This document shows positions 22,193-40,094 of a stretch of 55,241 bases of DNA, one piece after another (within the stretch, counting starts at the first letter, position 1; each line of letters begins with the position of its first letter). This DNA comes from Spirochaetota bacterium (GTDB lineage: Bacteria > Spirochaetota > JAAYUW01 > JAOAHJ01). The notes under the pieces are model-generated. The model saw only the letters and a list, made by a program, of their open reading frames with translations, was not told the origin of the DNA and ran no database searches. The DNA is taken from contig JAOAHJ010000006.1 of assembly GCA_026415295.1 (NCBI GenBank), positions 1 through 55,241 of the forward strand, written 5' to 3'. A program made the translations under genes and the position numbers.

Positions 22193-24430
22193 GTGAAATT
22201 ATATTTAAAAGAAATATTTTTAACTATATTAGTTGTATTTTGTTCTTATATCATATACCTTCTATTTTTTACAGAATATTTAAATTTTTTAGTTTATATT
22301 TTTGGTATATCTTTTAAACTTCTCCCATTCTTTTTAATAATAAATTCAATAATAAATCTATTATATATCAAAAAAAAATATAAGCAATTTTTAAATATAA
22401 TATTTTTTTCTCTTTTATTATTGCCTATTTTTATTAAATCAAATATTAAATACAATTTTTCAAATTATTCATTATTTGAAAACTTTCTTAAAAATAACTC
22501 AGTAGCTTTAATATTTTTCAATATATCATTCATTTTTAATTTTATTTATATGTCCATAATCTTAATAGATTTAATAGATTATATTAATGCATCAATATTA
22601 GAAAAAAAACTATTTCAAGAAAAAGATATAAAAAATGAAAAAGATTCAATTAACACAGAAAATAAAAATTATAATAAAGAGATACATAAATCTGAAATTA
22701 TAAAAAATGAAATAAAAGAGGTAATATCTGATAATGAATCTTTAATAGATGAAGAATATAATGAAAATAATTTTAAGGAAGAGAAAATTAAAGATGAAAA
22801 TTTATCAAAATTTCTAAAAAAAGAATCAATAGAAAATAATAAAGAAAATTTTAAAAATTACAGTAATAATATGGTAGATAAAGAAGAAATTTTTATTACA
22901 GAAAATGATATAGAAAAAGATCATTATTTTGAAAATGTTGTAGAAGAAAGGCTTAAAGAAAAAGAAAATGAATTAAATGAAAATATTGTAGAATTAAGTT
23001 TAGATAGTTTTGAAACAAATTTAGAAAAAGAAAATAAAAAGAATAGTATTATTGAACTATTAGAACAAAATAAAAATTTTGTTACTAAAATAAATGAAAA
23101 TAAAGGTTCACTCAATAAAACAGGAGAAATTATAGTAAAAACTTTATCAGATTTTAACATAGAAGCAAAAATAATAAATTATATAAAAGGGCCTACTGTA
23201 ACAAGGTTTGAACTTGAAATTAATGAGAAGGTAAATCTTGTAAAAGTTGAAAAATTAAAAAAAAATATAGCTTACAATTTATCAGCTAGCAAAATTAGAA
23301 TTCTAGCTCCAATACCTGGGAAAAAGGCTGTTGGAATAGAAGTACCTAATGAGGAAAAAGAAACAGTTTATTTTGACGATATATTTCTAAGAAATTATGA
23401 TAGACTTTTAAAAGAATACGAACTTCCTATTATTTTAGGAAAAGATATAGATGGAAAAGATTGGATAATAGATTTAACTGAAACTCCTCATTTATTAATT
23501 GCAGGAAGAACAGGTTCTGGAAAATCAGTCTGTATTAATTCTATAATTTGTTCTTTAATTGGACTAAAAACACCTTATGAATTAAATTTAATATTAATTG
23601 ACCCAAAAAGAGTTGAATTATCTTTATATGAAAATCTACCACATAATTTATGTGAAGTTATTATAAATCCAGACTTAGCTTCAAAAGCATTAAAATGGCT
23701 TATAATTGAAATGGAAAAAAGATATGAACTATTAAAAAATAATAAATGCAGAGACATTAAATCATACAATAAAATAGCGGAAAATAAAATTCCTTATCTT
23801 GTTTTAATTATAGATGAGTTTTATTCTCTTATGCAAGTAGCACAAAAAAATATTGAAGAATCAATCATAAGATTATCATCTATGTCTAGAGCCGTAGGAA
23901 TACATCTTATATTTGCAACTCAAAGACCCTCAACAGATGTTGTTACAGGAATTATTAAATCCAATCTGCCATCAAGAATTGCTTTTCAAACAACTTCAAA
24001 AATTGATTCTAGAATAATTCTTGATGAAAATGGAGCTGAAGAACTTCTAGGAAATGGAGATATGCTTTTTTCATTTACAGGTTATCCTCCTATTAGAATT
24101 CAAGGAGCTTTAATAAAAACTGAAGAAGTTAAAAATATAGTCGAAAAAGTTGCTAACGATTATATAAATTATAAAAATAAAAATATTATTGATGAGATAA
24201 ATTCTATTGAGAAAAAATTTGATGAGGAGGATTATGATATTAATACAAGTGATCCTTTATTTGATGAAGCACTTGAAATAATTAAAAATGAAAAAAAAGT
24301 ATCAGCCTCATATTTGCAAAGAAGATTAAAAATTGGTTTTAATAGAGCTGCTAGGCTTATTGAATTAATGGAAGAAAAAGGTTATATAAGCAAATTAAAA
24401 GGAGATAAAACCAGAGATATATATATTTGA
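22193..24430 (+). CDS. ftsK: DNA translocase FtsK/SpoIIIE
   Basis: FtsK pumps chromosomal DNA across the closing septum and helps resolve dimers. The N-terminal ~130 residues hold about four hydrophobic membrane segments. Residues ~140-290 are an acidic, Lys/Asn-rich linker. The motor has Walker A GRTGSGKS at 438-445, Walker B LVLIIDEF near 541 and the ATQRPSTDV segment. The C-terminal winged-helix gamma domain (VSASYLQRRLKIGFNRAARL, ~700 to the end), which reads KOPS sites in relatives, is intact. The GTG start has no ribosome site and lies 7 bases after a promoter -10. It opens a gene order (ftsK, lolA, rodZ, rimO, pgsA) resembling the spoIIIE-ymfM-pgsA region of other bacteria. Confidence 0.97.
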   Translation: MKLYLKEIFLTILVVFCSYIIYLLFFTEYLNFLVYIFGISFKLLPFFLIINSIINLLYIKKKYKQFLNIIFFSLLLLPIFIKSNIKYNFSNYSLFENFLKNNSVALIFFNISFIFNFIYMSIILIDLIDYINASILEKKLFQEKDIKNEKDSINTENKNYNKEIHKSEIIKNEIKEVISDNESLIDEEYNENNFKEEKIKDENLSKFLKKESIENNKENFKNYSNNMVDKEEIFITENDIEKDHYFENVVEERLKEKENELNENIVELSLDSFETNLEKENKKNSIIELLEQNKNFVTKINENKGSLNKTGEIIVKTLSDFNIEAKIINYIKGPTVTRFELEINEKVNLVKVEKLKKNIAYNLSASKIRILAPIPGKKAVGIEVPNEEKETVYFDDIFLRNYDRLLKEYELPIILGKDIDGKDWIIDLTETPHLLIAGRTGSGKSVCINSIICSLIGLKTPYELNLILIDPKRVELSLYENLPHNLCEVIINPDLASKALKWLIIEMEKRYELLKNNKCRDIKSYNKIAENKIPYLVLIIDEFYSLMQVAQKNIEESIIRLSSMSRAVGIHLIFATQRPSTDVVTGIIKSNLPSRIAFQTTSKIDSRIILDENGAEELLGNGDMLFSFTGYPPIRIQGALIKTEEVKNIVEKVANDYINYKNKNIIDEINSIEKKFDEEDYDINTSDPLFDEALEIIKNEKKVSASYLQRRLKIGFNRAARLIELMEEKGYISKLKGDKTRDIYI

Positions 24431-24566
24431 TAAAAATATAATAACTATTTTTATGTTCTTAAACATATTTTGTAATTCTTATATTTTTCAAATTAAAATT
24501 ATATTTTTTTATTGATTTTTATTCGAGATTTTATATTTTAAAAAAAAGAAAATTAAAAGGTAAAAA

Positions 24567-25274
24567 ATGAATAAAAATTTTAAAAATAGATTTAATATAT
24601 TAATTTTAGTTATATTTATTATTTTTTTATTTGAACAAAACTTTTATATTCTGAATGCTACCCAAGTTTTTAATATTAATGAACTTATTGAAATAATGAA
24701 ACAAAAATATTCATCTATTGAAGACTATGAAGGAACAATTGTTTATTTTTCTAAAACAAAATCAGATTCTATAGCTAATGAGAATGAAGGTAAAATATAC
24801 TATAAATTTCCAAATAAATTAAGGGTATCTTTTGAGAAACCTTATCAATGGGAAATAGTTACAAATGGTAAATTTCTTTGGGTTTACATTTCATCAATTT
24901 TTGCTGTTATAAAACAGGATTTATCAAAAATTGGAACTCTTGATTTTGAAAACTCAAAAAAATCATTATCTTACTTACTTAATAATTATTCTTTTAAATT
25001 CTTGACTGATGGAAATTTATCTCAATTCAATCAATTTAAAGTATATAAAATTATTGGATATCCTATATCACCAAATGCTGGTTTTGCTAAACTTGAACTT
25101 TATGTAAGAGATGATGGATTTATTGTCTATCAAGCAGGGACAACTAAAAGTGGAAAAGTTGTAGTTTATTATTTTAAAAATGTATCTTTTAATGTTTCTC
25201 TTGCAGATAATTTTTTTGAATATGAAAATTTTATCCCTTCTAATGTTCAGATAATTGATGAATCAATGAATTAA
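24567..25274 (+). CDS. lolA: outer-membrane lipoprotein carrier protein, LolA-like
   Basis: LolA ferries lipoproteins through the periplasm to the outer membrane. The 235-residue protein has a signal peptide (~8-32). The family pattern follows: NELIEIMKQKYSSIEDYEGT, GKIYYKFPNKLRVSFEKPY, then IVTNGKFLWVYISS and LSYLLNN, with the concave beta-sheet ending near VVVYYFKNVSFN. Its presence is evidence for an outer membrane, consistent with waaA in this window. The start has an AAAGG ribosome site. It follows ftsK by about 135 bases and precedes rodZ. Confidence 0.88.
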   Translation: MNKNFKNRFNILILVIFIIFLFEQNFYILNATQVFNINELIEIMKQKYSSIEDYEGTIVYFSKTKSDSIANENEGKIYYKFPNKLRVSFEKPYQWEIVTNGKFLWVYISSIFAVIKQDLSKIGTLDFENSKKSLSYLLNNYSFKFLTDGNLSQFNQFKVYKIIGYPISPNAGFAKLELYVRDDGFIVYQAGTTKSGKVVVYYFKNVSFNVSLADNFFEYENFIPSNVQIIDESMN

Positions 25275-25366
25275 AAAACATTTTATTTAATATTTAAATA
25301 ATAAATTTAATAAATATTAAATTAATTATAGAAAAATACTTTGATTCTAAATTTAAAGGATTAAAA

Positions 25367-26515
25367 ATGAATTCTGTTGGAAAAATACTCAAAAATAAAA
25401 GAGAGGAACTTCAAAAAACTTTAACCGAACTTGCTAATGAAACAAAAATTTCAAAAAGGTATCTTGAAGCTATTGAAAATGATAATTATGAAGAATTTCC
25501 AGGTGAAGCTTACTATCTTGGATTTTTAAAAACTTATTCTAAATCATTAGGTTTAAATCCTGATGAATTGATAGAGCTTTACAAAAGGCTTAAGCTTATT
25601 GAAGAGCCAATTCCAATGGAAGAACTCACAAAACCTCTAACAAACAATAAATTGCTAAACATAAAATATATTTCAATAATTGCTGGTATTCTAATAGTAA
25701 TATTATTTTTTTCTCTTTTTATTTTTATTAACAATAAAACAAAAAAAATTGCATCAAATACAAACGAAGAAAAGATTTCAAAAACAGTCTCAAAAAAACC
25801 AACAAATCAAGAAGATGAGAAATTTAAAAACTTTTTTAAGTTTTCAGACAAAAAGATAATAAAAGAATTACTGCCACAAGAAGGAATAAGCATAATATAT
25901 CCAAACCTTGTAAGTTTACATTTTTTATACAAAGATATTAATATAAATGAAAGAAAAATAACATTATATTTTTATGAAACAAATACAGAATACATAATTA
26001 GTGAAGGAGAAGAAATATATTTTAGTTTTTCAAACAATAATGATTCTAATGATCTTCTTATAAAACTTGAATCATTTTCAAGAAATAATCCACAAATTAT
26101 TTATTTAACTATAGAAAAAATATCTGATAATTTACCAGATTTAAACAATATAGTAGCAAATCAAGTAACCTCTTCAAAAAACGAACAAAATTCATCAGAA
26201 CAAAATCAATCTATCTTACCAAAATCTTCAGATACTAATATTAATGTTGAAATCAAATCAAGAAAATCTTGCTACATAAAATATATAGTTGATAATAATG
26301 AAACTAAGGAACAAATATTAACTCCAAATAATCCTTTAAGAATTTTTGGTAAAAATATAATTGAAATACATATAACACATCTTCCTTTTGTTTCTATAAT
26401 TATTAATTCAAAAGAAATTCAATTACCTAAATCATTTAATGGGTTTTTAATTATTAAATATATCTATGATGAAACAAGCAAAGAGTACAAAATAACATAT
26501 GAATTCAAAGAATAA
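25367..26515 (+). CDS. rodZ: RodZ-like cell-shape protein
   Basis: RodZ links the MreB cytoskeleton to the membrane. Residues 4-75 form the HTH_25 helix-turn-helix (GKILKNKREELQKTLTELAN, YLEAIENDNYEEFP, YLGFLKTYSKSLGLNPDEL). Residues ~101-121 are a single membrane span. The long extracytoplasmic part (~125-382) ends in a beta-rich DUF4115-like domain (~275-380). The start has an AAAGGA ribosome site. Its 3' end overlaps rimO by 17 bases, which implies translational coupling. Confidence 0.92.
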   Translation: MNSVGKILKNKREELQKTLTELANETKISKRYLEAIENDNYEEFPGEAYYLGFLKTYSKSLGLNPDELIELYKRLKLIEEPIPMEELTKPLTNNKLLNIKYISIIAGILIVILFFSLFIFINNKTKKIASNTNEEKISKTVSKKPTNQEDEKFKNFFKFSDKKIIKELLPQEGISIIYPNLVSLHFLYKDININERKITLYFYETNTEYIISEGEEIYFSFSNNNDSNDLLIKLESFSRNNPQIIYLTIEKISDNLPDLNNIVANQVTSSKNEQNSSEQNQSILPKSSDTNINVEIKSRKSCYIKYIVDNNETKEQILTPNNPLRIFGKNIIEIHITHLPFVSIIINSKEIQLPKSFNGFLIIKYIYDETSKEYKITYEFKE

Positions 26516-27785
26516 AATTTTTCTCATATCTCTTGGTTGTCCCAAAAATGAAATAATTTCTGAAAAAATAGCTTATATAGCAACTAAAAATAATTTTGAT
26601 CTAACAGAAAATATTTATGAAGCTAATTTTATATTAATAAATAGTTGCGGTTTTATAGAGGATGCTTTAAAAGAATCTATAAATGAAACTTTAAAAATTA
26701 AAAAATTTATTTTAGAAAATAATCTTGAATCAAAAATTATTTTAACAGGTTGCGCTACTATCCCTTTTGGAAAAGACTTAAAGGAATCACTTTATGAAGC
26801 AGATTTTATATTAAATTATGATGAATTACTTAATTTTTTTAACTCAAAAAACAATCTTTTATTTTCACCTAGATTTGATATTTCTAAAAATAGACACTAT
26901 AATTATCTTGCCATATCAGAAGGTTGCTCAAAGAAATGTACCTATTGCATTATTCCAACTATTAAAGGTGAATTTATAAAATATCCAGAAGAAATAATTT
27001 TAGAAGAAGCAAAAAGATTAAAATATAGGAATACTAAAGAACTAATCATTGTTTCACAGGATACTCTATCCTATGGAAAAGAACTAATTAGTTTAATGTA
27101 TAAATTATCAAATATGAATTTTCCATGGATAAGGATTATGTACTTAAACCCTGATTCATGGGATGATGATTTTTTACAAATATATAAAATAGAAAACATT
27201 CTAAAATATTTTGAAATTCCAGTACAACATTTATCTAATAATATACTAAAAAAAATGGGAAGAAAAAAAAGTTATGAAGAAATAGAAAAAATAATTTTCT
27301 CAATTAAAGAGAGATTTCCCGAAGCTTCTATAAGAACTACAATAATTGTTGGCTTTCCAGGTGAAACTAAAAATGATTTTGAATTTCTCTTAGATAAAAT
27401 AGAAAAATTCCCTTTTGATATAGTAGGAACTTTTATTTACTCAGATATGTCAAATGCACCATCATATAAATTCAAAGACAAGATTCCTCTAAAAGAAAAG
27501 ATTAGAAGATTGAATATATTAAATGAAAAGCTAAAAGATATGCATTCAAAAAATACTAAAAAATATATAAATAATGCTTATGATATGATAATTGATAATA
27601 TATTGAACAATAACAATAAATTTATTATAAATGGAAGAATCTATTCTCAAGCACCGGAAATTGATGGAATTACTATATTAGAAAATCCTAAAAATGATAT
27701 ATTAAAATACAGAAAAGGAAACTTTCTAAAAATTTATATCAATGATTCAATTTTACAAGATTTAATTGCAACAGAAATTAATTAA
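26499..27785 (+). CDS. rimO: ribosomal protein S12 methylthiotransferase RimO
   Basis: A radical SAM methylthiotransferase that modifies the conserved aspartate of ribosomal protein S12. The N-terminal UPF0004 domain carries the cluster ligands Cys14 (SLGCPKN), Cys50 (NSCGF) and Cys85 (TGC). The radical SAM CxxxCxxC is Cys143, Cys147 and Cys150 (EGCSKKCTYC), and a TRAM domain occupies the last ~65 residues. SLGCPKN and the absence of MiaB-type motifs favour RimO over MiaB. Its length of 428 residues is normal. The ATG lies inside the rodZ 3' end and has only a weak ribosome site, so it is likely coupled. Confidence 0.95.
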   Translation: MNSKNKIFLISLGCPKNEIISEKIAYIATKNNFDLTENIYEANFILINSCGFIEDALKESINETLKIKKFILENNLESKIILTGCATIPFGKDLKESLYEADFILNYDELLNFFNSKNNLLFSPRFDISKNRHYNYLAISEGCSKKCTYCIIPTIKGEFIKYPEEIILEEAKRLKYRNTKELIIVSQDTLSYGKELISLMYKLSNMNFPWIRIMYLNPDSWDDDFLQIYKIENILKYFEIPVQHLSNNILKKMGRKKSYEEIEKIIFSIKERFPEASIRTTIIVGFPGETKNDFEFLLDKIEKFPFDIVGTFIYSDMSNAPSYKFKDKIPLKEKIRRLNILNEKLKDMHSKNTKKYINNAYDMIIDNILNNNNKFIINGRIYSQAPEIDGITILENPKNDILKYRKGNFLKIYINDSILQDLIATEIN

Positions 27786-27845
27786 AAAAGTTAATATTTT
27801 GAATAAATTTACTATAAAAAAATATTTATATTATAAGAAATTATT

Positions 27846-29117
27846 ATGAAAAAAATAAAAAAATATATTAATATTCCGAATATTTTAACAATTTTAAGAT
27901 TTATATTAATAATACCTTTCATAATCTTTTTTAGCAAAAAAGACTTAATTTCTACTATATTAAGTTTTCTTATTTTTATAATTGCTTCAATAACAGATTA
28001 TATTGATGGAAAAATTGCAAGAAAGTATAATCTTATAACTAAAATCGGGGTTTTTTTAGATCCACTTGCTGATAAATTTCTGGTATTAACTGGTTTCTTT
28101 CTATTTTCTTTATATAAAATTATTTTTATTAATATAATTCTTATAATAATGCTTTTAATAAGAGAATTATTTATTACTTTTTTAAGAATAGAAACTGATT
28201 TTATTAATCTTAATAAAAATGAAAATAAGGAAGTAAAATTTAATGCTACTTTAAATCTTTTAAATAAAGAAAATGTTAAATTAAAAACTTCTTTTATAGC
28301 AAAAATCAAAACAACAATACAAATGTTTGCACTTTCGTATTATTTCATAATTTATATTTTAAATTTCAAATACAATCTGCCAAAGTTCTTATTTAAGGAA
28401 TTTTCTTTGGTGTTATTTTTAATAATAATCTATTTTGCATATTCCTCAGCATACGATTATATAATAAAAAATAAAAGAGAATCAATTAATACATTATTTA
28501 GAATGTTAACATCCTTTTTTTATACTGGATATTTTCCATATTTTCCTGGAACATTTTCATCATTTTTATTTTATTTAATTTCATATTTTATTATTACTTT
28601 ACCAAATAAATCTTTTGTAAAATTTTTAAGATTTATAAATTTTGATAAAAGTAATAATGTTATATCATATAATTCTTATTTTAATTTATTTTATTTAGGA
28701 ATTATTTTTTTATCAAGCTTTTTAATAACTTTATTTGTTGGAAATAAAGCAAATGACTTATATAAAGAAAATGATCCTAAGAATTTTACACTTGATGAAA
28801 TAGCTGGGGCCTCATTAAATCTTTTTTTAACCCAATTATTATTTTTAATTTTTTACAGAAAATCAACCTTTATTTCAGAAAAAATTAATATTTTGGTTAC
28901 TTTTCTATCCACAAATATAAAACAAATTTTATTAATAATATATATAATAAACTTTCTCTTTTTTAGATTATTTGATATATTTAAACCATTAGGGATTAAA
29001 AGAATACAGAAACTAAAAGGTGGTTTAGGAATATTAATAGATGATTTAATTGCTGGATTTTATTCTTTTATTTGTTTTATAATTTTAGTTTTTATTATCT
29101 TTCTATTTTTCTTTTGA
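27846..29117 (+). CDS. pgsA: PgsA-PgpA fusion: PGP synthase plus PGP phosphatase
   Basis: Residues 1-205 form a CDP-alcohol phosphatidyltransferase with the complete motif D51-x2-D54-G55-x2-A58-R59-x8-G68-x3-D72-x3-D76. A ~30-residue polar insertion (~118-148) precedes KIKTTIQ. Residues ~215-423 form a PgpA domain: GYFPYFPGT (228-236), LDEIAG (~316-321), FRLFDIFKP (373-381) and LKGGLGILIDDLIAG (390-404). The first half would make phosphatidylglycerophosphate and the second would dephosphorylate it to phosphatidylglycerol, so one membrane protein covers both last steps. The frame is continuous with no internal start bearing a ribosome site. pgsA after rodZ is a common gene order; the fused phosphatase is the unusual part. 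Confidence 0.9.
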   Translation: MKKIKKYINIPNILTILRFILIIPFIIFFSKKDLISTILSFLIFIIASITDYIDGKIARKYNLITKIGVFLDPLADKFLVLTGFFLFSLYKIIFINIILIIMLLIRELFITFLRIETDFINLNKNENKEVKFNATLNLLNKENVKLKTSFIAKIKTTIQMFALSYYFIIYILNFKYNLPKFLFKEFSLVLFLIIIYFAYSSAYDYIIKNKRESINTLFRMLTSFFYTGYFPYFPGTFSSFLFYLISYFIITLPNKSFVKFLRFINFDKSNNVISYNSYFNLFYLGIIFLSSFLITLFVGNKANDLYKENDPKNFTLDEIAGASLNLFLTQLLFLIFYRKSTFISEKINILVTFLSTNIKQILLIIYIINFLFFRLFDIFKPLGIKRIQKLKGGLGILIDDLIAGFYSFICFIILVFIIFLFFF

Positions 29118-29191
29118 TTTTATCTATATTTATAAAAATAAAATTCCGATTAATATTTAGGTTATAATACTTTTAAAAATAAAAAATTAAC

Positions 29192-29851
29192 ATGATGATA
29201 AAAAATTTTGATTTAATTAATTATATAAAACTGGCAAAAGATGGAAATAATGAAGCAAAAAATGCGCTTTATAGTAAATATTACTTCTTTATAGTAAAAA
29301 TTGTTTCCAAATTTTACAATTTTATTAATGATTCAAATAACAACTTCAAAGATCTTCTCCAGGAAGCTTCATATGCTTTCTTTTTATCTATTCAAAATTT
29401 TAACACAACCTCTCAAACCAATTTTAATTCATATACATACAAAATTATTAAGAATTATTTAATCAATTATTTAAAGAAAAATGAAAAAATTAATCAATAT
29501 CTAAAGTCAAATTTTAATTTTTTGGAAATAGAAAAAATTATTTCTGAAGAAATCAAAGAAGAAGATATAATATTTTCCGAAGAACTTTACAATAAAATAG
29601 AAAATATTTTTTCATTTGACTTCACAAATTTAGAAAGAAAAGTTTTTTTACACTATCTTAACTTTCAATCATATAATGAGATATCAAAGCTAATTAATGA
29701 AGAAAAGAAAACTATAGATAATGCTTTATATAGAGCAAAAAATAAACTAATTTCAAAATTATCTGAAACTGAAAAATCATTTTTATTAAATCAAAGAGGA
29801 TTAATAGTTGCATTAAAAAATATTCTTGAAAAAATCGAACAAAAAAAGTAA
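29192..29851 (+). CDS. sigma-70 family RNA polymerase sigma factor
   Basis: A 219-residue sigma factor of small (SigH/ECF-like) size. Region 2 spans ~10-95, with LLQEASYAFFLSIQNFN and FNSYTYKIIKNYLINYL recalling the core-binding and -10 recognition helices. Region 4 spans ~140-200: LERKVFLHYLNFQSYNEISK, then TIDNALYRAKNKL as the recognition helix. Region 3 appears absent. It starts at one of two adjacent ATG codons and ends 12 bases before the UvrD helicase gene, so they are likely co-transcribed. Which promoters it serves cannot be told, but the short tail after region 4 and lack of a nearby anti-sigma gene argue against a classical ECF pair. Confidence 0.8.
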   Translation: MMIKNFDLINYIKLAKDGNNEAKNALYSKYYFFIVKIVSKFYNFINDSNNNFKDLLQEASYAFFLSIQNFNTTSQTNFNSYTYKIIKNYLINYLKKNEKINQYLKSNFNFLEIEKIISEEIKEEDIIFSEELYNKIENIFSFDFTNLERKVFLHYLNFQSYNEISKLINEEKKTIDNALYRAKNKLISKLSETEKSFLLNQRGLIVALKNILEKIEQKK

Positions 29852-29863
29852 ATTTATCTCATA

Positions 29864-32083
29864 ATGGAACAACTACTTACTAAAATTCAAGATTACGCAG
29901 TAAAACTAATTGGTAAACCAATACTTGTAATTGCCTCAGCTGGATCAGGTAAGACAAGAATTATAGTAGAAAAAATAAAATATTTATTAGATAATGGTTA
30001 CAATAAAAACAAACTAGTAGCATTAACTTTTACTAACAAAGCTGCTGATGAGATTATTAAAAGGATAACAAAAGAAGAAAATCAAATCTTTCCATATTTC
30101 TCAACATTTCACTCATTTTGTTTAAAAATTATGAAAGAACATCCTGAATTATTTAATATTAACCCTGATTTTACAGTAATTGATGATGATGATCAAGAAG
30201 AAATTATAAAAGATTTAACTTCAAAAATTAAAATCAACAATAAAAACAATTACTTAAACGATGAAATTTATTCTATTAACTATTTAATTGACAAAATAAA
30301 TTTTATTAAACTTGATAAAATTGATTTTAACAAAGAAAAAATTGTTTATAAAAAATTAAAATTTGAAAAAGATAATTATGTTAAAACTATTTTTTATGAA
30401 TACGAAAATTTTTTAAGAAAAAACAATCTATTTGATTTTCAAGATCTATTAATATTTTCTTTAAAAGGACTTATAAATAATAATACTAGTAATTTTTTTA
30501 AACTTAAATTTGAATATATTTTGGTAGATGAATATCAGGATACTAATTGGATTCAAAAAGAAATATTAAAAAATATTTATAATGGTAATAACTTGCTTGC
30601 AGTTGGAGATGAAGATCAAGCTATCTATTCATTTAGAGGAGGTGATGTTAATAATATATTGAATTTTGAAGTTGATTTCCCCAATTCAGAAATTATATTT
30701 ATGACTGAAAATTTTAGATCTGGGAAAAATATTATAAATTTTGCTAATTTCATAATCTCTCAAAACAAAAATAGAAGAAAAAAGGAACTTAAAAATGCTT
30801 TAAATAAAGAAGGAGAGGTAAATTTAGTTAATACAAATACAAATTATGATGATTCTTATGCTATAGTTTTTATAATAAAAAACTTAATTAATCAAAATTA
30901 TAAACTTTCTGATATAGCAATTTTATACAGAGCAAATTTTCAATCTGGTTTAATCGAAAAAGCTCTATTAGAAGAAAATATTAGTTATATAATTTATGGA
31001 GCAATATCTTTTTTTAAAAGAAAAGAAGTTAAAATTGCTTTTGATTTCATTGCATTTATTCTAAATCAATCATCAATTTACCTCTTTTCAAAACTTATTA
31101 ACATTAATAGAATAGGTATAGGGCCTAAGAAAATTGAAGATTTTATTCATTTTGCAAAAAAAGAAGGTTTTGTTCAAGATAACTCAATAGTAAACTATCT
31201 TATAAAATACAAAAAAAATAGTGAATTTGTAAACTTTGGAGAAAAAATAATTGATCTTATACAATATTATAACTCACCTGTAGAATTTTTAATAAAATTA
31301 AAAGATATTTTTAAATTAGATGAATATTTTATTAAAATATCAAAAGATGAAAAAGAAATAGAAGAAAGAAAAGAAAATTACGAAACTTTAATAAAAATAG
31401 CACTTGAATTCAAAAACAAATTAAAATCTTCAACCATTAAAGATTTTTATGAAAAATTTGTTTTATATAGTAGAGAAAAGAATTCTAATGATTTTAATGG
31501 CGTTAAATTAATGACTATACATTTGGCTAAAGGCCTTGAATTTCCTATAGTAATTATTTCTGGGGCTACTAATGGTTTACTCCCATTAATAAGATTAAAA
31601 GATATTGAAAATGCAGATATAGAAGAAGAAAGAAGGTTATTTTATGTAGCTTCTACAAGGGCAAAAGATATTCTTTATATTACCAGTTACTCTTTAACTA
31701 ATTATTCATATGAATATATAATAAATAAAATACAGAATACAAAAAAAGAAAACTTAAAAATATTTTTGCAAAATTTTGGAAAACCTTCCTTATTTTTAAA
31801 AGGTATAGAAAATTTAAATTTTGTTAATTTTTATTTCTACAATTCAAAATTAAACCAACTAATAAAAATTAATAATCAATTAAATCTTAATAAAAATAAT
31901 AAAATCGAAAATAATCTAAGCACAAAAGAAATATTAGATATAAACATTAATGAAGATTTAATTATTAACCATAAAAATTATGGCAAACTAAAAATTATCA
32001 ATATTATAGAAATATCAAAAAATATAAAAATTTATGAATGTATCAATAATAAAGGTGAAAAAATAAAAATATTGATAAATTAA
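29864..32083 (+). CDS. UvrD/PcrA-family DNA helicase
   Basis: A superfamily 1 3'-5' helicase of 739 residues for repair and replication. Motifs in order: Walker A ASAGSGKT (24-31), motif Ia VALTFTNKAADEI, motif II VDEYQDT (~222-228), motif III GDEDQAIYSFRGG, motif IV LYRANFQ, motif V LMTIHLAKGLEFP and motif VI EEERRLFYVASTRAKD. Together these match UvrD/PcrA/Rep. The C-terminal ~130 residues are Asn/Lys-rich and divergent from PcrA. The start ATG has no good ribosome site and follows the sigma factor stop closely. Whether it functions in excision repair or replication restart cannot be decided here. Confidence 0.95.
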   Translation: MEQLLTKIQDYAVKLIGKPILVIASAGSGKTRIIVEKIKYLLDNGYNKNKLVALTFTNKAADEIIKRITKEENQIFPYFSTFHSFCLKIMKEHPELFNINPDFTVIDDDDQEEIIKDLTSKIKINNKNNYLNDEIYSINYLIDKINFIKLDKIDFNKEKIVYKKLKFEKDNYVKTIFYEYENFLRKNNLFDFQDLLIFSLKGLINNNTSNFFKLKFEYILVDEYQDTNWIQKEILKNIYNGNNLLAVGDEDQAIYSFRGGDVNNILNFEVDFPNSEIIFMTENFRSGKNIINFANFIISQNKNRRKKELKNALNKEGEVNLVNTNTNYDDSYAIVFIIKNLINQNYKLSDIAILYRANFQSGLIEKALLEENISYIIYGAISFFKRKEVKIAFDFIAFILNQSSIYLFSKLININRIGIGPKKIEDFIHFAKKEGFVQDNSIVNYLIKYKKNSEFVNFGEKIIDLIQYYNSPVEFLIKLKDIFKLDEYFIKISKDEKEIEERKENYETLIKIALEFKNKLKSSTIKDFYEKFVLYSREKNSNDFNGVKLMTIHLAKGLEFPIVIISGATNGLLPLIRLKDIENADIEEERRLFYVASTRAKDILYITSYSLTNYSYEYIINKIQNTKKENLKIFLQNFGKPSLFLKGIENLNFVNFYFYNSKLNQLIKINNQLNLNKNNKIENNLSTKEILDININEDLIINHKNYGKLKIINIIEISKNIKIYECINNKGEKIKILIN

Positions 32084-32529: not shown

Positions 32530-33999
32530 ATGAATGAAAATATTAAATTGAATGATAAAAGTTATGAAGCAGTAATGAAAAGAAAAAATGAAATAATGAA
32601 AAAGTCTCTTGGAATAGATTACTCAAAGTATTATATTTCCAATATCGCTTTTGATTATGAAAAAATGATGGAAGATGTTGGTTATTCAGTCCCTGAAATA
32701 TTAAAAATTCAAAATAGATTTAAGGTTGGAAATACTCCTTTATTTTACCTTGAAAACATTACAAAACTTGTAAGAAAATATGCAAAAAAAGGAAAAGGTG
32801 CTAAAATCTATATAAAGGATGAAGCAGCAAATGCTTCTGGATCATTTAAAGCAAGAAGAGCTGCTTTATCTGTATATTTAGCAAAAAAACTTGGATATAA
32901 AGGAGTTGTTGCTGCAACTTCTGGAAATTATGGTGCTGCTGTTGCTTCCCAATCTGCTATGCAAGGTTTAAATTGTATAATAATTCAGGAAGTTTTTGAT
33001 TCAAGATTCGTTGGTCAACCAGAAATTGTTGAAAAATCAAGGCATTGCGATGCATATGGTGCTGAAGTTATTATGTCTTCTGTTGGTCCTGAATTATTTT
33101 ATTCTCTTTTATTAACACTAGAAGAAACAGGTTACTTCAATGCTTCTTTATATACCCCATTTGCTATAGCAGGTGTAGAAACTTTAGGATGGGAATTGAT
33201 TCATCAAATGAGAGAAATTGAAGGAAGAGATCCAGATGCAGTTATCATTACACATGCAGGTGGTGGAAATTTAACTGGTACAGCAAGAGGAATATTAAAA
33301 GCTAAAATAGAGCTTAAAGAAACTAATTATACTGAAATAATAGGGTGTTCAGTTGATTTAAGTGGTTTGCATATGGCATCAGATAATGATTTTAACAAAA
33401 AATCTTTTACAACAGGACATACAGGATTTGGAGTTCCTTTTGCTACTTGGCCAGATAGAGCAGATACACCAAAGAATGCTGCAAGACCATTAAGATATAT
33501 GGATAGATACATTACTGTTACACAAGGTGAAGTTTTTTATGCAACTGAGATGCTTTCAGCTTTAGAAGGCCTTGAAAGAGGCCCAGCTGGAAATACTTCC
33601 CTTGCAGGTGCTATTAATCTTGCTATGGAAATGGATTCTAATCAAATAATTGTTGTTCAGGAAACTGAATATACGGGGGCAGGAAAACATCCTCAAGCTC
33701 AACTTTCCTTTGCTAAAGAAAATGGTATCGAAATAAAAAGAGGAGATCCAAGAGATTCTATTAATGGTAAAAATATTATTTTACCAAGAAATATTTCTGA
33801 TTTTTATCTTAATGAACTTGATCTTAAAAATTTGAAAAAATCATATCTTAGAAATATAATTAAAAATTTCTATAATGAAATAATTACAGATGTTGATTTA
33901 GAATTTTTATCCTTTGATATTAATGAAAAAATTAGTTGGATTAAAGAAACAATTTTTGAATTATTAAATGAAATAAAAAAAGAAAAAAATAAAAATTAA
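32530..33999 (+). CDS. ortB: 2-amino-4-ketopentanoate thiolase, PLP-dependent beta subunit
   Basis: The catalytic subunit of the OrtAB thiolase, a fold-type II PLP enzyme related to threonine synthase. The PLP lysine is Lys107 in NASGSFKARRA. VVAATSGNYGAAVASQ is the phosphate/substrate loop and ITHAGGGNLTGTARG binds the cofactor phosphate. The length of 489 residues agrees with known OrtB. It converts the keto product of ornithine to alanine and acetyl-CoA. It lies between ortA and oraS, with only a 14-base gap to oraS. Confidence 0.94.
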   Translation: MNENIKLNDKSYEAVMKRKNEIMKKSLGIDYSKYYISNIAFDYEKMMEDVGYSVPEILKIQNRFKVGNTPLFYLENITKLVRKYAKKGKGAKIYIKDEAANASGSFKARRAALSVYLAKKLGYKGVVAATSGNYGAAVASQSAMQGLNCIIIQEVFDSRFVGQPEIVEKSRHCDAYGAEVIMSSVGPELFYSLLLTLEETGYFNASLYTPFAIAGVETLGWELIHQMREIEGRDPDAVIITHAGGGNLTGTARGILKAKIELKETNYTEIIGCSVDLSGLHMASDNDFNKKSFTTGHTGFGVPFATWPDRADTPKNAARPLRYMDRYITVTQGEVFYATEMLSALEGLERGPAGNTSLAGAINLAMEMDSNQIIVVQETEYTGAGKHPQAQLSFAKENGIEIKRGDPRDSINGKNIILPRNISDFYLNELDLKNLKKSYLRNIIKNFYNEIITDVDLEFLSFDINEKISWIKETIFELLNEIKKEKNKN

Positions 34000-34013
34000 A
34001 AAAGGAGTCAAAT

Positions 34014-34370
34014 ATGAAATCAGGACTTGAAAGAAAAGATGATTTTGAAAAAAGAAGAGAACATTTAAAAAATTTATCAGATGAAGAATTAAAGAAAAGA
34101 TTTTGGGAATTAACAGAAAAAATAGTAGATCCCTTAGTTAAATTAGCTAAAACACATACATCTCCATCAATTGAAAGATCAGTACTATTAAGAATGGGAT
34201 TCAATTCTATTCAATCTAAAGCTATTGTAGAAGAAATTATAAAAAAAGATCTTTTAGGACATGGAGCAGGAAATATTGTCCTTAAATTAGCAGAAAAAGA
34301 GAGGATAGATTATCTTAAAGCAGGACAAAAAATTATCGAAGGGTACCCAATAGAAAATTTATTCCAATAA
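34014..34370 (+). CDS. oraS: D-ornithine 4,5-aminomutase, S subunit
   Basis: The small subunit (118 residues) of the adenosylcobalamin- and PLP-dependent enzyme that converts D-ornithine to 2,4-diaminopentanoate. Family features include KRREHLKNLSDEELKKRFWE, THTSPSIERSVLLRMGF, AGNIVLKLAE and KAGQKIIEGYPIE. A GGAG ribosome site precedes the ATG. It follows ortB by 14 bases and precedes oraE by 116 bases. Confidence 0.94.
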   Translation: MKSGLERKDDFEKRREHLKNLSDEELKKRFWELTEKIVDPLVKLAKTHTSPSIERSVLLRMGFNSIQSKAIVEEIIKKDLLGHGAGNIVLKLAEKERIDYLKAGQKIIEGYPIENLFQ

Positions 34371-34486
34371 AATTAGGATTTATATTAAATAGATTTTTTA
34401 TTATAATTTTTGGATAAATTTATGATAAAAATAAATTTATATGAAATAATTTTTATGAAATTTTAGTATAAATTAAGGAGTATTAT

Positions 34487-36679
34487 ATGAAATTAGATCC
34501 AAAAAAGAAATTAGATTTTAAATATATACTTTCAGATTTAAAAAATTTTAGAGCAAAAAAAAGAGGTTGGGTGTGGAGAGAAAAACCAGAATCTATAAAG
34601 TATGGTGAACACACATATTATGATCACTCCACACCTTTAAAAAAATCCATACCTCTCCCTGCAGCTAAATATTTCGGGAATATTGATCCACAACCAAAAC
34701 CAATAATAACTACAGAAATAGCTTCTGGAAGATTTGAAGATGACATAAGAAGAATGAGAATGGCAGCATGGCATGGGGCTGATCATATTATGGTTATCAG
34801 AACAACAGGACAATCACACATTGATGGATTAATTGAAGGAACACCTGAAGGTATTGGAGGTGTTCCAATTACAAGAAAACAAGTAAGAGCTACTAAAAAA
34901 GCTTTAGAATTAATTGAAGAAGAAGTTGGTAGACCCATAAATTTCCACTCTTATGTTTCAGGTGTTGCAGGACCAGAAATTGCAGTTATGTATGCTGAAG
35001 AAGGTATTGCAGGTGCTCACCAAGACCCACAATACAATGTTTTATATAGAAATATAAACATGTTTAGATCTTTTGTAGATGCTGCAGAAGCTAAAAAAAT
35101 TATGGCAGATGCACATATTTTTCAAATTGATGGAGCACATAATGCAAATGCTACAGCAAAAAAAGCTTGGAATGTTAGACCTGAACTTATGGTTCAACAT
35201 GCAATAAATTCTCTTTATTCTGTAAAGGTAGGGATGAATCCTTCAAACATTGGTCTATCAACTGTGCCACCAACAGCTGCACCAGCTCCAAAAATTTGGT
35301 ACGATTTACCTTATGCTGTAGCTCTGAGAGATTTGTTTTCTGATTTTAAATTCAGAGCTCAACAAAATACAAGATATGTTGAATCTGATACTGATGAAGC
35401 TACTATTACACATGTTATTGATACTTTAATATCAGCTTTAACATCAGCAGATATTCAGTCTACTATTACTCCTGATGAAGGAAGAAATGTTCCATGGCAT
35501 ATTAATAATATAAGAGCTGTAGATGGAACAAAACAGGTTTTTAACTCTCTTGATGGTATAAAAAAATTAGTAAAACTCGATATGGATGGCCCTCTTGGGA
35601 AAATGGTTAGAGAACTAAAAGAAAGAGCTGTTTTATTTTTAGAAGAAATAATTGAGGTTGGTGGATATTTTGAAGCAGTATCAAAAGGATATTTTGTCGA
35701 TTCTGGGTATTATCCAGAAAGGAATGGTGATGGAATTGTAAGAGAAAAAGATGGAGGTGTGGCTGCAAATTCTATAGTTGAAAGAAAACCTGATTATTTT
35801 GCTCCTGTATGTTCTCATTTTGGAAATAATAATATTCCCTCAAAATACAAAAAAGCTTGCGATGCTATAGATGGATGTACATTATGTAAACCCGAAAAAA
35901 TTCAATTCATAGATGAATTGGATCCTGAAGATAATGTTGAAAAAAGAATTAAAAAATATTTAGAAGATGAAGAAAAAGGTATCATTAAGCCTGAAGCTGA
36001 ATGGCATGGGGATGGTATAGTTACAGTAGAAATGGTTATTCCAACCTTTTATGAAGCAGCAGAGGTTGCTGCACTTGAGTTTGCAAAGAAAATGAATCTT
36101 GAAGATCCTCAAATAATTCACAAAAGAGTTCTTCATCCAGCTGAAGCTTCTGCTTTCTTAGTAAAAGGAAAACTTAATGCTTCAATTAATTTATCTGATA
36201 TTAAGATTCCAGAAAAAGAAGAATATTTAAGCGATAGTGAAATAGAGGAATTTGTTAAAAAACATGATTTAAAAGTTGTTGGTGCAACTGTTGGGGAAGA
36301 TGAGCATTCTGTAGGAATGCAAGAAATTTTAGACATTAAACATGGAGGAATTGAAAAGTGGGGATTTAAATGCTATTATCTTGGCACCTCTGTACCAGTT
36401 GAGAAACTCGTAGATGCAGCGATAGAGGTTGGTGCTTGTGCAATACTTGCTTCTACCATAATTACTCATGGTGATGTTCATAGAATAAATATGAAAAAGC
36501 TTGATTCAATTTGTAGAGAAAAAGGAATTAGAAATAAGATATTATTAATAGGAGGAGGAACTCAAGTTACAGATGAAATAGCAAAAGAGTGTGGATTGGA
36601 TGCAGGATTTGGAAGAGGAACTCATGGAATAGATGTTGCTAATTTTATAGTTAAAAAACTTAAAGGAATAAAAAAATAA
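34487..36679 (+). CDS. oraE: D-ornithine 4,5-aminomutase, E subunit
   Basis: The large subunit (730 residues) with a TIM-barrel catalytic domain (~100-440) and a C-terminal Rossmann-type cobalamin domain (~590-725). The B12 motif DxHxxG is present as DEHSVG with His607 as the cobalt ligand. Lys618 lies 11 residues on, matching the PLP lysine (His618/Lys629) of the C. sticklandii enzyme. QIDGAHNANATAKKAW is another hallmark. It needs both B12 and PLP. Its GGAG ribosome site is good. The racemase (orr) and 2,4-diaminopentanoate dehydrogenase (ord) that complete the pathway are not in this window. Confidence 0.97.
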   Translation: MKLDPKKKLDFKYILSDLKNFRAKKRGWVWREKPESIKYGEHTYYDHSTPLKKSIPLPAAKYFGNIDPQPKPIITTEIASGRFEDDIRRMRMAAWHGADHIMVIRTTGQSHIDGLIEGTPEGIGGVPITRKQVRATKKALELIEEEVGRPINFHSYVSGVAGPEIAVMYAEEGIAGAHQDPQYNVLYRNINMFRSFVDAAEAKKIMADAHIFQIDGAHNANATAKKAWNVRPELMVQHAINSLYSVKVGMNPSNIGLSTVPPTAAPAPKIWYDLPYAVALRDLFSDFKFRAQQNTRYVESDTDEATITHVIDTLISALTSADIQSTITPDEGRNVPWHINNIRAVDGTKQVFNSLDGIKKLVKLDMDGPLGKMVRELKERAVLFLEEIIEVGGYFEAVSKGYFVDSGYYPERNGDGIVREKDGGVAANSIVERKPDYFAPVCSHFGNNNIPSKYKKACDAIDGCTLCKPEKIQFIDELDPEDNVEKRIKKYLEDEEKGIIKPEAEWHGDGIVTVEMVIPTFYEAAEVAALEFAKKMNLEDPQIIHKRVLHPAEASAFLVKGKLNASINLSDIKIPEKEEYLSDSEIEEFVKKHDLKVVGATVGEDEHSVGMQEILDIKHGGIEKWGFKCYYLGTSVPVEKLVDAAIEVGACAILASTIITHGDVHRINMKKLDSICREKGIRNKILLIGGGTQVTDEIAKECGLDAGFGRGTHGIDVANFIVKKLKGIKK

Positions 36680-38885: not shown

Positions 38886-40094
38886 ATGAGTACAAACTAC
38901 CTAAAAATAGAAGGTAAATATAATATTGCTATTGTTTATACTAAAAATATTGATAATTCAGCTATTGATCAAATTAAAGCTCTTGTCAACTTAGAGTTTT
39001 TTAAAGATTGCAAAATTGCTATAATGCCTGATGTTCATGCTGGTGCTGGATGTGTTATAGGACTTACTATGACACTAAATAAATATGTAATTCCTAATTT
39101 AGTTGGAGTTGATATTGGTTGTGGCATGTTAACATTAAATATAGGTAATAAAATAAATCTTGATTTTGAAAAGCTTGATAATTTTATAAAAAAAAATATT
39201 CCACATGGATTTGATAAAAATAAAACAATTGATACAAGAATTAAAAATGAAGATCCATATATTGAAAAAATATTAACCAATTCTTTTGAGAATACAAACA
39301 TAAAAATTAACAAATTAGATGATTTTGTTAATCAGATAGAAAACATTTCAATTAAAATCGGAATTTCTCCTGAAGAACAACTAAGATCACTAGGTTCTTT
39401 AGGTGGTGGAAATCATTTTATAGAAGTTGATAAGGATGATAAAGAAAACTATTTTTTAGTAATTCACACAGGTTCAAGACATTTTGGATGGCAAATTGCA
39501 AATTATCATCAAGATATTGCAAAAAAATATTGTCAAAAAAAAGGCTATAAAGTTAGCAGTTCTCTTTCATTCCTAGAAGATGAAAAAAAAGAAAATTATC
39601 TATTTGATATGAAAATTGCTCAAGTTTTTGCTAAAGTAAATAGATTTATAATTGCTTCGAGAATATTAGAATTTTTAGATGTAGAATTTAAAAAGATTGA
39701 CCATTTTGAAACAATTCACAATTACATTAATTTCAAAGATAATATTATTAGAAAAGGGGCTGTATCAGCATACAAAGGAGAAAAAATATTAATTCCAATA
39801 AATATGAGAGATGGGAGTTTAATATCAATAGGTAAAGGTAATTCTGATTGGAATTTTTCAGCTCCTCATGGTGCAGGTAGAATAATGTCCAGAAATGAAG
39901 CAAAGAAAAAGCTTTCTTTAGAAGAATTCAAAGAAACTATGAAAGGAATATATTCAACTACAATCAATAGAGATACTCTCGATGAAGCCCCTTTTGCTTA
40001 TAAAGGAATAGACGAAATAATAAAAAATATTACTGAAACAGTAGAAATTGAAAAAATAATAAAACCAATCTATAATTTTAAAGCTCCAGAATAA
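38886..40094 (+). CDS. rtcB: RNA ligase RtcB
   Basis: RtcB joins RNA ends bearing 2',3'-cyclic phosphate or 3'-phosphate to 5'-OH ends using GTP and Mn2+. Signatures include MPDVHAGAGCVIG, VGVDIGCG with the metal ligands Asp76 and Cys79, GGGNHFIE with His177, VIHTGSRHFG with His194, and SAPHGAGR with the guanylated His328. It has 402 residues, the shorter bacterial form. No rtcA or rtcR lies nearby. It may repair stress-damaged tRNA or rRNA. The ATG has no ribosome site. Confidence 0.96.
   Translation: MSTNYLKIEGKYNIAIVYTKNIDNSAIDQIKALVNLEFFKDCKIAIMPDVHAGAGCVIGLTMTLNKYVIPNLVGVDIGCGMLTLNIGNKINLDFEKLDNFIKKNIPHGFDKNKTIDTRIKNEDPYIEKILTNSFENTNIKINKLDDFVNQIENISIKIGISPEEQLRSLGSLGGGNHFIEVDKDDKENYFLVIHTGSRHFGWQIANYHQDIAKKYCQKKGYKVSSSLSFLEDEKKENYLFDMKIAQVFAKVNRFIIASRILEFLDVEFKKIDHFETIHNYINFKDNIIRKGAVSAYKGEKILIPINMRDGSLISIGKGNSDWNFSAPHGAGRIMSRNEAKKKLSLEEFKETMKGIYSTTINRDTLDEAPFAYKGIDEIIKNITETVEIEKIIKPIYNFKAPE

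Follow-up and report, generated by a model that had tools for sequence, protein, structure and literature searches.

The locus and its reading frame

The window, i.e. the whole stretch of 55,241 nucleotides that was analysed, carries on its plus strand a reading frame of 423 codons with an ATG start (27846-29117), in which two enzyme domains follow each other in one polypeptide. Residues 9-169 (27870-28352, +) matched the CDP-alcohol phosphatidyltransferase family of PgsA (Pfam PF01066, CDP-OH_P_transf, 97.1 bits against a cut-off of 22, E 1.7e-27), and residues 221-414 (28506-29087, +) the PgpA phosphatase family (Pfam PF04608, 89.5 bits against a cut-off of 28, E 2.5e-25). These were the only PF01066 and PF04608 matches in the source genome (2.1 Mb, 39 contigs, 96% complete). 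The transferase motif DxxDGxxAR x8 GxxxDxxxD was intact as D51-x2-D54-G55-x2-A58-R59-x8-G68-x3-D72-x3-D76 (27996-28073, +) and was invariant in all seven fusions detected in the phylum. The PgpA half likewise retained its conserved blocks: GY 228-229 and GT 235-236, both within GYFPYFPGT at residues 228-236 (28527-28553, +), the acidic pair D317-E318 (28794-28799, +), and FRxFD 373-377, KP 380-381, GGxG 392-395 and DD 399-400, all located in the block FFRLFDIFKP...GGLGILIDDLIAG at residues about 370-404 (28953-29057, +). In the alignment of the seven fusions nearly all of these blocks were invariant, among them the GT pair, the acidic residues, FRxFD, KP and DD without exception. The first-pass annotation had described a single frame with a complete transferase motif from D51 to D76 and a complete set of PgpA motifs, and all three points were borne out.

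The gene is embedded in a run of the order ftsK-lolA-rodZ-rimO-pgsA/pgpA-sigma-uvrD (22193-32083). It is preceded by genes for a LolA-like protein (24567-25274, +) and a RodZ-like protein (25367-26515, +) and by rimO (26499-27785, +), which neighbours pgsA in many Spirochaetota genomes. A sigma-70 family factor (29192-29851, +), the downstream neighbour throughout the order, and a UvrD/PcrA-type helicase (29864-32083, +), a downstream neighbour in family f5 too, follow. Three other genomes of the order (G001-G003) keep this run from lolA on, with the LolA-like and RodZ-like proteins in the same places. Further along the window, at 32530-36679, a gene for a PLP-dependent enzyme is followed by those for the small and large subunits of D-ornithine 4,5-aminomutase (domains OAM_alpha, Lys-AminoMut_A, OAM_dimer and B12-binding), a content which suggests an ornithine fermentation cluster. 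An RtcB-type RNA ligase gene was found at 38886-40094. The source genome had three matches to FlaA (PF04620), the family of the spirochaete flagellar sheath, which was absent from 14 control genomes; on this basis we take the phylum to be Spirochaetota.

Assignment of the two halves

The protein is very probably a bifunctional membrane enzyme that converts CDP-diacylglycerol and glycerol-3-phosphate to phosphatidylglycerol and that stems from an adjacent pgsA-pgpA pair. The N-terminal PgsA domain would form phosphatidylglycerophosphate (PGP) and CMP from the two substrates, and the C-terminal PgpA domain, expected to require Mg2+, would then remove the terminal phosphate from PGP. We infer both activities from family membership.

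The domain border (residues about 209-220, 28470-28505, +) contains an in-frame ATG at codon 220 (28503-28505), eight residues ahead of the conserved GY, so that the earlier statement that there is no plausible internal start can be kept only in part: a candidate codon exists, but no ribosome site is evident ahead of it and related fusions do not conserve it. No Shine-Dalgarno-like sequence precedes it (upstream letters CAATTAATACATTATTTAGA), and a start-like codon is absent from the corresponding place in the order's three other fusions. The halves might nevertheless act separately, either after cleavage of the chain or through a second product from codon 220, and the fusion would then be a neutral accident of the operon. 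The position of the ATG exactly at the PgpA border would fit such a scenario, as would the overlapping or abutting genes of unfused relatives. So would the family f5 fusion of G067 (locus L066), where an internal GTG at codon 221, 15 residues before the PgpA GY, has AGGA upstream and makes a second, separate PgpA product conceivable in that protein. Given the missing ribosome site in the window, the lack of a start codon in the order's other fusions and a frame that is still open in relatives diverged to about 40% identity, we regard separate action of the halves as unlikely.

PgsA works on the cytoplasmic side of the membrane. The PgpA of E. coli spans the membrane several times and dephosphorylates PGP in a Mg2+-dependent manner; its active site is predicted to be cytoplasmic (PMC11629553). 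Both active sites of the fusion should therefore face the same side. A sequence search for solved structures returned none of PgpA. The PgpA half evolves fast in the source genome (branch 1.62 in the tree), and the genome also encodes PAP2-family proteins, which could stand in as PGP phosphatases; PgpA therefore need not be the sole enzyme for this step. Both observations would be in line with a PgpA half that is no longer catalytic and has an anchoring role in the membrane or a regulatory one, phosphatidylglycerol being made by the PAP2 phosphatases. The invariance of the putative catalytic residues of this half in seven of seven fusions argues against such a loss, which we consider very unlikely.

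For the N half, NCBIfam ranked pgsA first in every one of the seven fusions. The window's own N domain is long-branched and very AT-rich (18% GC). The window protein scored 90.9 bits (E 1.3e-25) with the pgsA equivalog model TIGR00560, below the cut-off of 109.1 that was passed by four of the seven (G002 with 110.2, the f5 fusions with 127-135), and its N half is therefore PgsA-like by best match and fold and not a formal member of the equivalog family. The AlphaFold2 model of the fusion (pLDDT 85.8, pTM 0.81) matched the PGP synthase of Staphylococcus aureus (7drj/7drk) with E values of 5e-6 to 6e-5, as compared to 0.27 for PIP synthase.

A different substrate has to be considered since Bacteroides thetaiotaomicron makes phosphatidylinositol with such a pairing (BT_1523/BT_1525), i.e. 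a CDP-alcohol transferase together with a phosphatase of the PgpA family, BT_1525, that acts on PIP (PMC9246714). PgpA-family proteins can thus act on other lipid phosphates, which counts against a PGP-specific reading of the C half, and the catalytic motif of the N half is common to both kinds of transferase. The window protein could then be a phosphatidylinositol-phosphate synthase fused to its own phosphatase, with phosphatidylinositol as product. Against this stand the score of 22.7 bits with the PIP synthase model NF045883, far under its equivalog cut-off of 170 and to be compared with the 90.9 bits for pgsA, and a fold closest to 7drj with PIP synthases far behind. Furthermore, the fusion is the sole PF01066 protein found in the genome, so that an inositol-phosphate substrate would leave no phosphatidylglycerol synthase. 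We give this alternative hardly any credence. The claim of the first-pass annotation that a PGP synthase and a PGP phosphatase, both with intact catalytic centres, are fused here was supported, the families matching PGP rather than the inositol-phosphate pair.

Distribution and origin of the fusion

A profile survey of 393 Spirochaetota genomes returned PgpA above cut-off in 90 genomes, seven of which had it fused to PgsA. Besides the source genome, G001-G003, which belong to another family of the same order, encode uninterrupted frames with both domains (379, 399 and 387 aa) that are about 40-41% identical to the window protein. The first-pass annotation had named an assembly artefact among the findings that would overturn the fusion, and an error of assembly or sequencing is imaginable with 39 contigs. 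It is ruled out for practical purposes because these three other assemblies encode the same fusion in the matching gene order lolA-rodZ-rimO-fusion-sigma-uvrD.

The remaining fusions were found in G018, G053 and G067, all of family f5, in which two further members (G006 and G039) still have pgsA and pgpA as two genes. In trees of the N half, of the C half and of both joined, the f5 fusions grouped with their unfused kin, away from the fusions of the window's order. Forcing all fusions together was rejected by the AU test (p = 0.024 for the N half, 0.029 for the C half and 0.0015 for the joined alignment), a result to be read with caution, as the window protein sits on long branches and is unusual in composition. 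The fusion thus probably arose at least twice, as far as the trees can tell. One ancient fusion with later splits is strictly speaking still conceivable and would need more changes. In the tree of the N half, the unfused PgsA placed closest to the order of the window was that of L007 (1492-2136) in G012, a genome without a PgpA match.

The fusion would derive from an adjacent pgsA-pgpA pair. Among the 44 unfused genomes examined by locus, a hand count gave 37 in which pgsA directly precedes pgpA in the same orientation; in the other seven, pgsA was not found within the stretch retrieved around pgpA. Outside family f5, most of the loci inspected have rimO ahead of pgsA. Only the stop codon of pgsA keeps the two genes apart in G026, G032, G153, G188 and G194: beyond it the pgpA frame begins at once and in phase, so that changing this one codon would be enough to give a fusion in these five genomes.

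Several candidates were discarded. The apparent fusions in G019, G026 and G032 have a stop codon between both genes. Six genomes (G013, G081, G126, G169, G200 and G218) have long PgpA frames which are incidental, as pgsA lies in another frame there. In the 392 genomes surveyed from the phylum of a Bacilli MAG, PgpA frames did not exceed 251 aa, and hence no fusion was seen there. A scan of genome contigs returned only two distant transferases, and a scan of plasmids no match.

Lipid context and comparison with known systems

Each of the order's four genomes yielded a single PF01066 protein, namely the fusion. CdsA, the supplier of CDP-diacylglycerol, is present in the source genome, and phosphatidylserine decarboxylase was not found in the four genomes of the order (89-96% complete). 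With the fusion as sole PF01066 protein and no phosphatidylserine decarboxylase found, phosphatidylglycerol may be the main phospholipid derived from CDP-diacylglycerol in this order, within the limits set by incomplete genomes and possibly unrecognised enzymes. A protein of 396 aa with two PLD-like domains (L089, 1315-2505; G000:C5) is weakly similar to DISARM DrmC and to the nuclease NucT. It was rejected as a cardiolipin or phosphatidylserine synthase, since it has a signal-peptide-like start and no such model matched. The second PLD match of the source genome lies in a frame of 1067 aa.

Direct channelling of PGP between the PgsA and PgpA sites is a plausible hypothesis. The full picture, in which a natural single-chain phosphatidylglycerol synthase channels PGP from one site to the other, is the organism's only enzyme for a phospholipid derived from CDP-diacylglycerol, and evolved twice within Spirochaetota as coupling was favoured, seems doubtful to us when all its parts are taken together. 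With the fusion, nature provides a test of whether PGP levels change when the last two steps of phosphatidylglycerol synthesis are joined, by which channelling becomes testable, and the second fusion extends this to the advantage of the arrangement, by comparison of fused with unfused relatives. In a phylum with a patchy distribution of PgpA, the fusion also establishes a firm link between this family and PgsA, and it may serve as a single-gene tool for phosphatidylglycerol production, e.g. in synthetic membranes.

The open-access papers searched describe no characterised protein that unites PgsA with PgpA, whether as a fusion or as a bifunctional enzyme, and the present one is likely uncharacterised. 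Fusions between adjacent enzymes of one pathway are a common kind of event, and the merger of PgsA with PgpA is unusual, yet biochemically unsurprising.

Residues 1-210 share motif, fold and best family match with PgsA (TIGR00560; S. aureus 7drj/7drk), from which the window protein differs by the second enzyme at its C-terminus and a longer loop at about 118-148. The C half has every conserved family block and the expected pathway step in common with PgpA (PF04608; E. coli PgpA); it differs in being fused to the preceding enzyme and in inserts at about 250-275 and 335-360. The adjacent pgsA-pgpA genes of other Spirochaetota show the same domain order, often with rimO upstream as in the window, but encode two polypeptides whose frames overlap or abut, down to the one stop in the five genomes described above. 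The Bacteroides pair BT_1523/BT_1525 likewise couples a CDP-alcohol transferase with a PgpA-family phosphatase, but through separate genes and with an inositol-phosphate substrate, whereas the N half of the window protein is closest to PgsA. In IPCT-DIPPS (4mnd), too, a CDP-alcohol transferase is fused to another enzyme of its own pathway; there, a cytidylyltransferase takes the step ahead of the transferase, whereas in the window a phosphatase takes the step after it.
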